Shown piece by piece: positions 7,920 through 14,953 of a stretch of 21,284 nucleotides of DNA. The DNA comes from Thermoplasmata archaeon (GTDB lineage: Archaea > Thermoplasmatota > Thermoplasmata > Thermoplasmatales > Thermoplasmataceae). Position 1 is the stretch's first letter, and each line of letters starts with the position of its first letter. The notes below the pieces were generated by a model. The model was not told the origin of the DNA. It saw only the letters and a list, made by a program, of their open reading frames with translations, and did not search any database. Location: the NCBI GenBank assembly GCA_021797525.1, contig JAJZZQ010000025.1, positions 1 through 21,284 on the forward strand. Reading direction: 5' to 3'. The translations under genes were made by a program, and so were the position numbers.

Positions 7920-8504
7920 TTACTTTCTTCTGTTGAACACAAAGTATAGAACAACCATTGAGGCAACTATTGCAATTATAATAGCAGCATCCCTATAATC
8001 TACGCTAAGTGGGTTAACCCTTGGATGGCTCCATGTAAATCCAGGAAAAGCCCCAAGCTCCAGAGCCCTGAGATTCGTCAGGGTTACGCCGCCATATTTT
8101 ACCAGGGATTTGTCATTCTCTATCTTTTTAAAGGCTTTGGTAAAATTCTGCGCCGTGGGAGCTGCATTCATTTCCGAAAGGGCACTCACAAGCTGCAGAC
8201 CATAATAATTAAGCCCAGTGTATGAGGTGTCAAAGACTACCAAAGCCTCAGTTGAATTAGCACTCCAGTTATAGCCAGTAAATACAGAAGAGTTGCCAAG
8301 CACATCAGAGAAAAACAATGACCAGTCGCTGGATGTGATTGTGTAATTGGATGGTGTTCCCGTTACATAATAATTGAACGAGGGAAGAGAACTGGGAGGT
8401 GTCGGAAGTGGAGAAGGCGCAGAGGTTGCCGCAAGGCTAACTCCAGACGACATCACTATCAGGGAGAGAACAGCCATTGAAATCAGTATGTTGAGTTTCT
8501 TCAT
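7920..8504 (-). CDS. secreted, C-terminally membrane-anchored surface protein
   Basis: 194 residues, no recognised domain. A Sec signal peptide spans about 1-26 (MKKLNILIS then VLSLIVMSS, likely cut after SLAA). A Pro/Ser-rich stretch (PSPLPTPPSSLP) follows, then an extracellular region with several N-x-S/T sequons (NYT, NSS, NST, NFT) and many Tyr. It ends with a membrane helix near 172-191 and the positive tail FNRRK. This is a type I topology with the bulk outside, typical of S-layer-associated or binding proteins. It lies 57 bases downstream of the giant surface gene on the same strand but has its own box A, so it may be expressed alone or with it. The function is unknown. Confidence 0.82.
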   Translation of the reverse strand: MKKLNILISMAVLSLIVMSSGVSLAATSAPSPLPTPPSSLPSFNYYVTGTPSNYTITSSDWSLFFSDVLGNSSVFTGYNWSANSTEALVVFDTSYTGLNYYGLQLVSALSEMNAAPTAQNFTKAFKKIENDKSLVKYGGVTLTNLRALELGAFPGFTWSHPRVNPLSVDYRDAAIIIAIVASMVVLYFVFNRRK

Positions 8505-8561: not shown

Positions 8562-11500
8562 CTATTTTTGCCTCACAATATTAGAATTATCTCCGGCTAC
8601 GGACTCCATCTCTATTTGAAATGAGACATAAGAATTGCCATCAGGGTCCGTTTGCCTGGTAAGGAGTTTCCCGGGATTGCGCTTTATCAGTTTCCGGACA
8701 GCGGTTCTGGAAACACCACTTTCAGTAGCGTTCCTTATCATTGTTCTGATGTCCGCATTTATGTTTTTTCTTATGTATTCCAGAACCTCTTTCTCTGTTT
8801 TGCTTCCTCGGTTATTTCTCCTCATAACAAAAAAGATGAGAAGTATTGGGCAAGCTATTTCAGGGATAGGCCCGGTTGAGAAAACATTCTTTGAATAGAC
8901 CTTATCACCTGCGTCCCCATTTACATGCACAGAAATTGTGCTGTATCCTGGTGTAAGAATGGCAAATACACTCTCATTGGAGCCAACCTTCCTGGAATTT
9001 AGAAATATTGAGTAACTGAAAGACCCTGTATCGTTCCCTTCAAGTATAGGGCTTATCTTTGCGAAGCCAAGTACCTGTGCTACATTTATAATAACATTGG
9101 TAATTACAGGAATGGAGGACACGTTGAAATATGCGGTTTTAGAACTGTTGCTGTTACCGCACAGATCAGTGTCTAAGGCGTAAACACGGTATCGCCCGTC
9201 CTTATTTATTGAGAGAATAACTGTGCCATTATCTTTGCCATATTCACCCTCTAGTCTGCTGTTTAGATAAATATATACGGTTGAGCTAACAGGATCAGAA
9301 ACAGAGTATTTGAATTGAATTTTTCCCTTTCCCACGCTGGATGGAACTGACAGGTTGATGTCTGGCTTTACCTTCGAATAAATAATCTCCAGTGAAGTTG
9401 TGTTGATACTTCCATATTTGTTTTCCTCATTTATGATGAACCATGATTTTGTGAAATCTCCAAAAAATTGGAAAGAACTTCCATTGAATGTTGAATTTTC
9501 AGAACCATTTAAATGAGAAACCGTGAAGGATTCACCTGATGAGGGAAACGGAATGGTAAAAATACTTGAGTTAGTATAATAAATCCTATTCAGCCAAGAA
9601 AAAGATGGAATGGAGTTGTTCACCCAGAAATTTACCTCTGAAGTGTTTGATAATCCCGATTGCCCTTTTGCCGAGATTACTGCTTTGTATTCTCCATTCT
9701 GTGAGAAAATATTTCTATAATTGCCAAGTGCAAAAACCACTTTTCCGATTTCTGACTCAGTGGAATTGATCAATCTTAATCCTCTAGGGTTGTATATCTG
9801 GATGTTAAGATCTGAAGTAGTGTTTGTGGTAACATTGATAAGCGGGTTTGCCCCTGTGCTGTCCTTAGAAAAAGATACATAATAACGGTTCATTGTGATA
9901 TGTACTGATGGCGCATAGGTAAGAATATTTATTACAGAATAGCCTATGAGAACTTCCTGACCTTGCGGGAATATACCAATAACAGTAATATTCCACTCAC
10001 CATTTCCAAGTTTAAGAACTGTGTTATTCACATCCGTTGACACATTTTCTCTTGATGAATTAGAAACAGCCTCCACCTTATATCTCGATACATTGCTGAG
10101 TGTTTCCCATCCAAAGCTAACAGAATCGCTGCTCAGATAGGAACCATTCCTTATCGTAAGTGTATCATTTTCCGTTAAGGGAATTATAAATATTTGCAAA
10201 GTAAGATTGTAAATTCTTCCGTATGTGTCAAAAAGAACCAAATGTAGAGAATAATTTCCTGTTAAATTTGCAGGCAGGTCTTCACTATAGTTCCTCCCCG
10301 TGAAATTTAACAGAAATCCCTCATTATAGAGGCCTTTAACCTTATCTTCCGGAATATTATTCAGCTCAAATTCAAGCCTGGAACCCTCCTTAATTGATGA
10401 TGAATTCTGGACAGTACCTAAATAAGGTTTAAAATCGTCCACCACAAACCCGGTGGTGATATTTACTCTGGAACCAATTTCATTCTCTACATCGAGCGAG
10501 ACATAGTTTGTGCCATTATTGAGCCTATCAGGGTATGCGACAACACTGCTGTTCATGATCCCGGCAGGTATACTGTTTATAAAGGCCTTAACCGTGTACT
10601 TGGAACTGGAGAATACGTTGAAGTTAAGATCTGCACTGCTTCCTGAATAATATTCCTTCAGGTTAAATTTTACTGATAAATTTGTGTCCGGGAGTGGATA
10701 GATGCCTCTGTAATACACATCTATCCTGCCTGCGTTGAACGAGAAAATTGATCCATTAGAGGAGCACAGCAACCTTGAACCCTGTGAAATAGGAAGCACA
10801 GTTATTCCAGACCCGTTAATGAGAAGATAAGAGGCTAAACTTTTTGCTAAAAGCCCTTCATCCATTGCCAGTTCGGGTAAAATGGAAAAATTTGAGTGCC
10901 AGAGTCCTGTGAAGCTGGAAGATACATAACTTCCTCCACTCCCGTTACCATTCCATATGCTATATGAAAGGCCTGATCCTTCAATGGTTCTCAGTAATGC
11001 AACAGAAGGAAATAGAGAGGCACCCATCTCTTGCAGCATTTGAAATGAGCTGTCAGAAATATTAGCCGCATATTGGTATTTTATGCCACTGGACTCATTG
11101 AAAACTGAAAAGTTGATAGTAGAACCTTTGAAACTTGCCCCAGTTATGTTGGAGCCGTTTACTGTGAAATTCAAAGCTTTCCCCGTTTTCAGGCTTAACA
11201 GAAACACTTTCCCTTCCCCTGAAAGAATTATATCTGAACTGTTTTTCACAAAAACTACAGAGGCTCTTGGCGTGTCGATTGTACCTCCCACATATTCCCT
11301 TGAGAAACTGTCTTCATTAATGGATATTAAACGAGTGCTGTTTTCCTCTGAAATCAGGCAATAATAGAAATCCCCTAATCCAAAGCTTTTCAATATGCTT
11401 TGAGAAATCTCTGGCTGGAAAATCTTCCATGAAGTCCTGTTCTGGAGGTTCAGTGCATATATGGAATCATTTGCGGAATTTTCATAGATGATTGAGTCTG

Positions 11501-12302
11501 TATGCGAATCATACCAGAATGCACTTTCTGAACTGTTGATTGAAAATGAACCGCCTATACTGGTTTCGTTCCATCCTTGACCTGAAACATTATTCAAGCT
11601 GGTTACAGATGACCTGTTTTCAAGGCTTATACTGAAGAGAGTGATATTGCAGAAAGGCCCTCCAATGAAAAAACTGCCATAATTAGAATCTGTTCCATTC
11701 TCAATGTTAATGGGGAACTCCACCGGAGTATAAGGGTTTGAACCGTTGCCAAATGAATAGAATAATGTTCTGAAGTTGTCCAGGGAGAGTTGTATAGTCA
11801 GATTTCTGTCCATTGAGGGATCTGCTCCAATTCTTGTAGTGTTACCTGAATCAAGATAATCATAACCTCCGTATCCGTAACCGAAGTATTGCCGCAAAAT
11901 TCTGCTTTTACCAAAATTGAGGATGATGTTAGACATTGTTTCATAATAATTACTGTTGGAATTCCAGTTGAAAGTCAATCTGATGCTCATGTTGCCACTG
12001 ATTGGGAATCTAATCTCAAAAGTAGTCCAGTTAACAACTCCATCCTGTGGTTTTGAAAATATGTTCAAGCCTTTCCCATATTCTAACGATTCAGTGGCGA
12101 TACGATAGTTGTTGCTTTTGTTCTTTACTAGAAACGAAAAGCCACTTCCATTTGATGGGAATGAACCAGATGGCTGCTTTGAAAAGTTATAGATCATAGG
12201 CTCCTGTTGAATATTGGTATGCACAGTTCCCATAGACACTCCTTGAAATGGTAGGGAAATACCCAGAAGAAGTATTAGTATAATATATACATGAATTTTC
12301 AT
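8562..12302 (-). CDS. giant surface glycoprotein-like membrane protein with cytoplasmic winged-helix-like tail
   Basis: 1246 residues from ATG 12302; a TTG nine codons upstream (12329) is an alternative. The ATG gives a compact signal peptide (MKIHVYIILILLLGISLPFQG). Residues about 25-230 look like a lectin/laminin-G-like beta sandwich (NLTIQLSLDNF, FFIGGPFCNITLFSISLE). About 240-540 resembles a beta-propeller (repeated short strand/turn units with YALNLQN and VFLLSLKTGKALNF). The remainder up to about 1140 resembles Ig/PKD-like modules. I count about 60 N-x-S/T sequons and only four or so extracellular Cys. A membrane helix follows near 1144-1159 (IPEIACPILLIFFVMRR), then an 87-residue basic cytoplasmic tail. 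The tail has the helix-helix-helix-wing pattern of a winged helix: EKEVLEYIRKN, IRTMIRNATESG, VSRTAVRKLIKRN, then wing LLTRQTDPDGNSYVSFQ. It suggests an outside sensor tied to a DNA-binding domain. Domain names are by eye. Confidence 0.85.
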   Translation of the reverse strand: MKIHVYIILILLLGISLPFQGVSMGTVHTNIQQEPMIYNFSKQPSGSFPSNGSGFSFLVKNKSNNYRIATESLEYGKGLNIFSKPQDGVVNWTTFEIRFPISGNMSIRLTFNWNSNSNYYETMSNIILNFGKSRILRQYFGYGYGGYDYLDSGNTTRIGADPSMDRNLTIQLSLDNFRTLFYSFGNGSNPYTPVEFPINIENGTDSNYGSFFIGGPFCNITLFSISLENRSSVTSLNNVSGQGWNETSIGGSFSINSSESAFWYDSHTDSIIYENSANDSIYALNLQNRTSWKIFQPEISQSILKSFGLGDFYYCLISEENSTRLISINEDSFSREYVGGTIDTPRASVVFVKNSSDIILSGEGKVFLLSLKTGKALNFTVNGSNITGASFKGSTINFSVFNESSGIKYQYAANISDSSFQMLQEMGASLFPSVALLRTIEGSGLSYSIWNGNGSGGSYVSSSFTGLWHSNFSILPELAMDEGLLAKSLASYLLINGSGITVLPISQGSRLLCSSNGSIFSFNAGRIDVYYRGIYPLPDTNLSVKFNLKEYYSGSSADLNFNVFSSSKYTVKAFINSIPAGIMNSSVVAYPDRLNNGTNYVSLDVENEIGSRVNITTGFVVDDFKPYLGTVQNSSSIKEGSRLEFELNNIPEDKVKGLYNEGFLLNFTGRNYSEDLPANLTGNYSLHLVLFDTYGRIYNLTLQIFIIPLTENDTLTIRNGSYLSSDSVSFGWETLSNVSRYKVEAVSNSSRENVSTDVNNTVLKLGNGEWNITVIGIFPQGQEVLIGYSVINILTYAPSVHITMNRYYVSFSKDSTGANPLINVTTNTTSDLNIQIYNPRGLRLINSTESEIGKVVFALGNYRNIFSQNGEYKAVISAKGQSGLSNTSEVNFWVNNSIPSFSWLNRIYYTNSSIFTIPFPSSGESFTVSHLNGSENSTFNGSSFQFFGDFTKSWFIINEENKYGSINTTSLEIIYSKVKPDINLSVPSSVGKGKIQFKYSVSDPVSSTVYIYLNSRLEGEYGKDNGTVILSINKDGRYRVYALDTDLCGNSNSSKTAYFNVSSIPVITNVIINVAQVLGFAKISPILEGNDTGSFSYSIFLNSRKVGSNESVFAILTPGYSTISVHVNGDAGDKVYSKNVFSTGPIPEIACPILLIFFVMRRNNRGSKTEKEVLEYIRKNINADIRTMIRNATESGVSRTAVRKLIKRNPGKLLTRQTDPDGNSYVSFQIEMESVAGDNSNIVRQK

Positions 12303-12410
12303 TATTTTATGAATCCCTAAATGGTTCAATTCTTAAGAAATCTTTTCTCCAATATTGCAAGACATAGAACCTGAACTTATTCAGCAAAGTGCAGATAAAA
12401 ATGACTCATT

Positions 12411-12420
12411 ACTTATATAT
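12411..12420 (+). promoter_or_regulatory. box A of the gap-radA-ACT operon
   Basis: ACTTATATAT is centred about 29 bases before the ATG at 12445, with no Shine-Dalgarno between. It identifies 12445 as the start of a leaderless mRNA and argues against the upstream in-frame TTG at 12355. Confidence 0.65.
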
Positions 12421-12444
12421 CTACCTGAGCAATTGTCTCTTGTC

Positions 12445-14437: not shown

Positions 14438-14953
14438 ATGTGGCAGTATATCAACGAGAGCTTCAAAAAATACCCTTCACAGCAGAAAGTCCTGGTGAAA
14501 CTGATAAGTCTTGGGCTATCCGTGAGGAGAGATTTCGAAGGTGTCCCAAGGATATACTGCTCGGATGTTGAGGTCAAGGCTTCAGCCCTTGCATCTTCTC
14601 TAGACATAGACAGGAGAGCCGTACTTGATGCCCTGGACAAGATAGTCCAGGATGAGAAGATGGCAGTTTTTTTCGCTAACATAACGCCTGTTCCTGACTT
14701 CGGTAAAGTTAGCACACACCTTGGTATGGGTGTCATACAGATACTCCCGGAATCAGCCACAAAGCCTGGAATAATCGCAGGGGTGTCCAGGATATTCAGT
14801 GAAGAGGGAATAAGCATAAGGCAGGTTCTTGTAGATGATCCAGAACTATCCGAGAGCCCAAAGGCAACAATAGTGACAGACGGCCAGATACCATCCAGAC
14901 TCCTGTCTGAGATCCGTAAAATACCAGGTGTTCAGGCAGTACTCCTTCTCTGA
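14438..14953 (+). CDS. HTH plus ACT domain regulatory protein (COG2061-like)
   Basis: 171 residues. The N-terminal half (about 10-75) looks like a winged helix: KVLVKLISLGLSVRR, VKASALASSLDIDRRAVLDALDKIV, then a strand. The C-terminal half (about 95-171) is an ACT domain: GVIQILPES, then KPGIIAGVSRIFSEEGISIRQVLVDDP, the typical ACT beta-alpha-beta with Gly at the ligand turn, then KATIVTDGQIP and a final IRKIPGVQAVLLL. ACT domains bind amino acids, so this is probably an amino-acid-responsive regulator; archaeal COG2061 members have this architecture. It starts eight bases after radA with only a weak AGGA element, so it is likely the last gene of the gap-radA transcript. Its target is unknown. 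The stop codon lies in a 16-bp palindrome shared with purK. Confidence 0.82.
   Translation: MWQYINESFKKYPSQQKVLVKLISLGLSVRRDFEGVPRIYCSDVEVKASALASSLDIDRRAVLDALDKIVQDEKMAVFFANITPVPDFGKVSTHLGMGVIQILPESATKPGIIAGVSRIFSEEGISIRQVLVDDPELSESPKATIVTDGQIPSRLLSEIRKIPGVQAVLLL

Follow-up and report, generated by a model that had tools for sequence, protein, structure and literature searches.

A giant surface glycoprotein-like protein of Thermoplasmatales with a predicted winged-helix tail

The gene P0001 lies on the minus strand, at 8562..12302, of a 21,284-nucleotide stretch of DNA from a Thermoplasmata archaeon (contig JAJZZQ010000025.1; hereafter the window) and encodes a giant, membrane-anchored, surface glycoprotein-like protein of 1246 amino acids, as called from its sequence and its homologs. 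The computational analysis establishes the gene, the layout of its product and the predicted fold of the C-terminal tail, and shows that this tail is conserved across the order and evolves under purifying selection. A structure model, together with fold and profile matches, makes a winged helix very likely for the tail. In the window protein, one chain unites a membrane segment with a domain of DNA-binding type (as a predicted fold), and we give about an even chance to the interpretation that it is a transmembrane one-component regulator, with its targets left unnamed; it would then both bind DNA and signal. In such a regulator, the large glycosylated ectodomain would sense the state of the surface or a surface ligand, a single membrane helix, followed by a short linker whose length is nearly constant, would relay the change, and the winged helix, held at the inner face of the membrane, would then contact DNA.

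Layout of the gene and its product

The gene begins with an ATG at 12302 and ends with a stop codon at 8562, and the plus strand across this interval is rich in stop codons. A previous reading of the DNA, made without database searches (the sequence-only reading), gave these coordinates correctly and left the minus strand unsaid; the motifs that it quoted for the tail are present in the translated sequence.

All parts of the protein are encoded on the minus strand. The signal peptide region (approximately residues 1-26, 12225..12302) was assigned by eye, without a predictor. The ectodomain (approximately residues 27-1138, 8889..12224) is predicted to be all-beta on the basis of an AlphaFold model and family profile evidence. 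A script counts 61 N-x-S/T sequons in it, close to the 60 or so claimed previously, against 22.9 expected from composition. The membrane segment, defined as the most hydrophobic 19-residue window within the last 160 residues, starts at residue 1140 with a mean of 1.70; one other window above 1.6 is located elsewhere. The single membrane helix (approximately residues 1140-1160, 8823..8885) also appears in the ectodomain model, where a helix at model positions 1125-1137 (residues 1146-1158) coincides with the segment. The remaining tail has 88 residues and a net charge of +8 according to the script, in agreement with the single membrane segment and basic tail of 87 residues described before. An excess of sequons that precedes the membrane segment, a positively charged tail and a signal peptide, called by eye only, would be in line with a glycosylated ectodomain and with an outside-in topology, in which the winged helix would be on the cytoplasmic side.

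Predicted fold of the tail

The winged-helix domain (residues 1170-1230, 8613..8795) is supported by AlphaFold, a fold search, a profile match and an alignment. The AlphaFold (AF2) model of the window tail, which was built from 8 sequences, has the order helix-helix-helix-strand-strand, with a predicted local distance difference test (pLDDT) score of 71-85 in the core blocks and 70.8 on average; the tails of other members were judged by alignment only. The helices are H1 (1170-1179), H2 (1185-1195) and H3 (1199-1208), and the wing consists of S2 (1214-1218), a D-P-D-G turn (1219-1222) and S3 (1224-1228). The C-terminal extension (residues 1231-1246, 8565..8612) is poorly conserved, with a dN/dS of 0.324 over its 16 codons and a low pLDDT.

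The sequence-only reading had proposed a winged helix, to be checked by structure prediction and a fold search and to fall with any other predicted fold. The predicted fold is a winged helix, and winged-helix proteins rank at the top when the model is searched against PDB. In addition, a profile of the tail matches the winged helices of Lrp, and four control families score low. The three best PDB matches of the tail profile are the designed proteins 5byo, 4yxz and 8vl3, which were set aside; 5byo and 4yxz match the profile via many tiny repeat matches.

The curated Pfam cut-off for helix-turn-helix (HTH) domains was not reached by the window tail (HTH_6, 15.6-15.8 against 28.3 bits). When Pfam was applied to 35 of the 48 tails aligned below, each HTH model was matched in one or two members, with HTH_24 as the best (E 0.001). 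Since the tail falls below the Pfam HTH cut-offs, a search with domain models would probably miss it. A viral library searched with the tail returned some HTH proteins (best E 0.085).

Distribution and conservation of the family

Three protein-database searches, each scoring approximately 7,990 candidates, identified seven relatives among the candidates scored (P0002-P0008), three of them 99, 78 and 57% identical and four approximately 24-25% identical. P0009, a 2040-residue protein that aligned over 2% of the query, was rejected. No relative came from scanning genome contigs with the giant as query, and the order was reached by way of the adjacent GAPDH-like gene: Thermoplasmatales archaeon UBA447 (G001) carries a copy 78% identical that adjoins the same GAPDH-like gene. 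The order set comprises 117 genomes centred on G001 and represents the order of the closest named relative.

A profile of 31 members has matches in 82 of the 117 genomes, 71 of which are counted as family after exclusion of 11 weak genomes (E 1e-16 or weaker). A tail-only profile gives one strong match (E 5e-8 or better) per genome in 70 genomes, all within the 71; in the remaining one (G280), only the first 187 residues are present, at a contig end. Other proteins that share both ectodomain and tail, for which the sequence-only reading had suggested a search, are thus found in 70 of the 71 family genomes, and absence of the tail was not seen. We did not count as family the weak tail matches that occur in 8 other genomes or the second weak one in G346; the end of the weak match in G301 looks like what we take to be an MCM C-terminus.

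The giant is mostly single copy per genome in the order. A second, partial giant in G168 is perhaps the result of a mixed assembly. Shorter forms exist as open frames of 766 residues (Ferroplasma acidarmanus) and 718 residues (Acidiplasma aeolicum). A class-wide sample gave matches at 1e-5 in 87 of 300 genomes, many of them partial (profile part 550-1150) and inside other large frames. A tblastn search against phages gave no match, and NCBIfam contains no family for the giant or three of its relatives. We did not find the family described in the open-licence literature, as judged by titles and the starts of abstracts, nor is it mentioned in the available parts of PMC8345856, PMC5898192, PMC8416519 and PMC13286277.

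For the alignment of the tail, we took 48 members that reach the C-terminus, omitting P0002 (the 99% copy), L069 and L070 (whose contigs end before the tail) and the second L088 fragment. Because an alignable tail sits at the same position in all 48, its placement is not due to chance. The spacing from the membrane segment to the tail is near-fixed across these members, in 5 of which the membrane segment is weak by hydropathy. Purifying selection is stronger on the tail than on the ectodomain.

Possible functions of the tail

The H2 positions 1186, 1190, 1193 and 1194 are basic in 75-88% of weighted sequences and the H3 positions 1199, 1203, 1204 and 1207 in 56-61%; one alignment of the tails leaves out 13 of the 48, which are for the most part closely related to a row that it retains. 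This basic face, as read from the sequences, favours nucleic acid as the binding partner. Three features point the other way and weigh against a conserved operator: H3, the recognition helix, is variable across the family and less conserved than H2; the acidic turn of the wing is invariant; and the clade of the window is without two conserved basic residues, the window protein having T1193 and E1194. It is because the basic face suits nucleic acid but these features do not that regulation is given no more than an even chance.

The same basic face with a variable recognition helix would suit a membrane-to-nucleoid tether, in which sequence-nonspecific DNA binding anchors the chromosome to the surface coat and regulates nothing. 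The short fixed linker agrees with such an anchor, as does its single-copy presence in most genomes of the order, which suggests a housekeeping part more than a niche sensor. We nevertheless consider a tether unlikely, since winged helices are mostly regulators and the window clade is missing the two basic residues. Alternatively, the winged helix could dock a cytoplasmic partner (a transcription, division or secretion factor) with no DNA contact. Winged helices that contact proteins are known, and docking would account for an invariant acidic turn and for an H3 that is poorly conserved next to a better conserved H2; however, most members have a strongly basic H2/H3 face, which makes this improbable too. 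Release of the tail as a DNA-binding fragment by intramembrane cleavage is very improbable: at its outer end, the membrane helix carries small residues as well as G1144 (78%) and P1147 (73%), a feature of rhomboid substrates, but no cleavage site or protease partner turned up, though neither was sought, and the near-fixed spacing of the linker suggests a geometry that is used while the tail is attached.

Within the one-component regulator interpretation, the giant might be both a building block of the exterior glycoprotein layer of Thermoplasmatales and a gene regulator, such that each molecule of the coat has its own inner DNA-binding domain. This combination seems to us quite unlikely; if it were true, the state of the coat would be read at the membrane without a kinase or a second messenger.

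Relation to known systems

According to a survey by Demey et al. (2023, PMC10269533), in which genomes were searched for genes that encode both a DNA-binding domain and a transmembrane region, transmembrane transcription regulators (TTRs) are widespread in archaea and approximately 56% of those surveyed are single-pass. The giant is like the TTRs described there in that one polypeptide contains both a membrane segment and a domain of DNA-binding type, and differs in its 1100-residue sequon-rich ectodomain, which we judge to be unusual. ArnR and ArnR1 of Sulfolobus acidocaldarius are described in PMC6396743 as membrane-bound one-component regulators tied to surface structures; ArnR has an HTH at its N-terminus, a putative HAMP, a sensor domain and two transmembrane segments at its C-terminus. 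They would resemble the giant as surface-linked archaeal membrane one-component regulators, regulation by the giant being a proposal only; in contrast to ArnR, it has a single transmembrane segment and a giant ectodomain, with the winged helix at the C-terminus.

According to PMC12448462, an S-layer is absent from the Thermoplasmatales examined to date, Cuniculiplasma and Oxyplasma included; these two are covered by a dense, likely glycoprotein exterior protein layer (EPL) of approximately 20 nm, and the EPL proteins of Thermoplasmatales remain to be found. The giant family, known here from sequence, might suit such a layer, being large, sequon-rich, anchored and frequent in the order. A mostly single-copy family of this kind in 71 of 117 genomes is a concrete candidate for an EPL component of Thermoplasmatales. 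If, moreover, the tail acts on DNA, the giants would form an unrecognised family of archaeal membrane regulators, perhaps missed by current domain models, that spans lineages as familiar as Ferroplasma; by the predicted fold, the surface coat of these wall-less, acid-loving archaea may talk directly to genes.

Neighbouring genes and proposed targets

The sequence-only reading had proposed that the giant acts on its own gene or on a small anchored surface gene 57 bases downstream. The next gene (7920..8504, minus strand) indeed begins after 57 bases, at 8504, and encodes a protein of 194 amino acids with a C-terminal hydrophobic segment and the ending FNRRK. This frequent neighbour of the giant has no convincing match in Pfam, NCBIfam or PDB. 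The ending FNR(R/K)K is found in all 9 aligned small proteins (9 of the 31 clustered loci), and genomes without the giant have variant endings.

Control of this gene by the giant is not supported. The small protein family (approximately 185 amino acids) has one match per genome in 110 of the 117 order genomes, 42 of which are without a strong giant hit (37 of the 42 by weaker small-protein matches). At 18 small-gene loci without the giant, no adjoining open frame has the giant layout, as read from printed ends with no profile. In 43 of the 70 genomes with a tail, the small gene follows the giant on the same strand, at most 800 bases downstream. In the others it is a convergent neighbour (4), lies within 10 kb (5), is farther off than 10 kb (3), is found on a different contig (13) or lacks a strong match (2), and the 16 genomes in which it is on another contig or more than 10 kb away argue further against it as a target. 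Real as it is, this linkage is not exclusive, and for this reason a dedicated partner like ToxS is unlikely. In the ToxR-ToxS and TcpP-TcpH pairs of Vibrio, the gene of the membrane regulator adjoins that of a small membrane protein; the domain order of ToxR and TcpP is opposite to that of the giant.

The promoter of the giant itself fares no better as a target. The intergenic region 12303..12444, common to the giant and the divergent GAPDH-like gene, contains no inverted repeat above chance (p 1.00). The sequence upstream of the giant was tested at 41 loci, each with 60 mononucleotide shuffles; inverted repeats reached p<=0.05 in 5 of them, where approximately 2 are expected.

In 42 loci compared, some of which end before the compared places, the genes downstream of the giant include an eRF1-domain (Pelota-like) gene (31), the small gene (31), Mut7-C (27) and a flavoprotein gene (23), and those upstream include RadA (26) and GAPDH (24). 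The last two names are our presumption; the eRF1, Mut7-C and flavoprotein names are from Pfam. The flavoprotein gene (PF02441 in one copy scanned) is not in the window. The window open reading frame 14438-14953 carries an ACT domain; it was rejected as a relative of the tail, as its N-terminal part did not align with it.

Ectodomain and other giants

Pfam gave no match to the window giant above cut-off or at E 0.01. Among 31 family members scanned, the Ig-like model Big_13 matches in 13 (though not in the window protein itself) and PKD_4 in 5; Y_Y_Y matches in one member, as does a propeller model. The sole PDB chain below E 0.01 for the family profile is 2yn3 (E 6e-5), named putative inner membrane protein, which we take to be Ig-like. 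AlphaFold models residues 22-1159 as nearly all-beta, though the confidence is low, with a mean pLDDT of 57.8. A search with this model listed Ig/FN3 and other beta proteins at a TMq of approximately 0.1, too weak to name a fold. The beta-rich ectodomain of the sequence-only reading is therefore upheld as a prediction, with Ig-like modules in relatives, and its lectin or propeller idea is left with the low-confidence model and scattered weak matches. The ectodomain is very divergent except for N285, identical in 46 of 48 members, and G1119, identical in all 48.

Two further kinds of giant were observed. One genome without the giant family (G099, L159:4082-9166, minus strand) encodes a 1694-residue surface-type protein that likewise ends in one transmembrane segment and a tail that resembles a winged helix and has a D-E-N-G turn; a partial relative is present in 1 of the 116 other order genomes. 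Tailed giants may have more than one origin. Another sequon-rich giant of approximately 1100 residues (L182:6946-10254 and L183:4171-7470, both plus strand) diverges from the detached small gene. Beyond its transmembrane segment, the tail of this giant is too short to form a winged helix, and a winged-helix tail is therefore not generic in giants of this kind.
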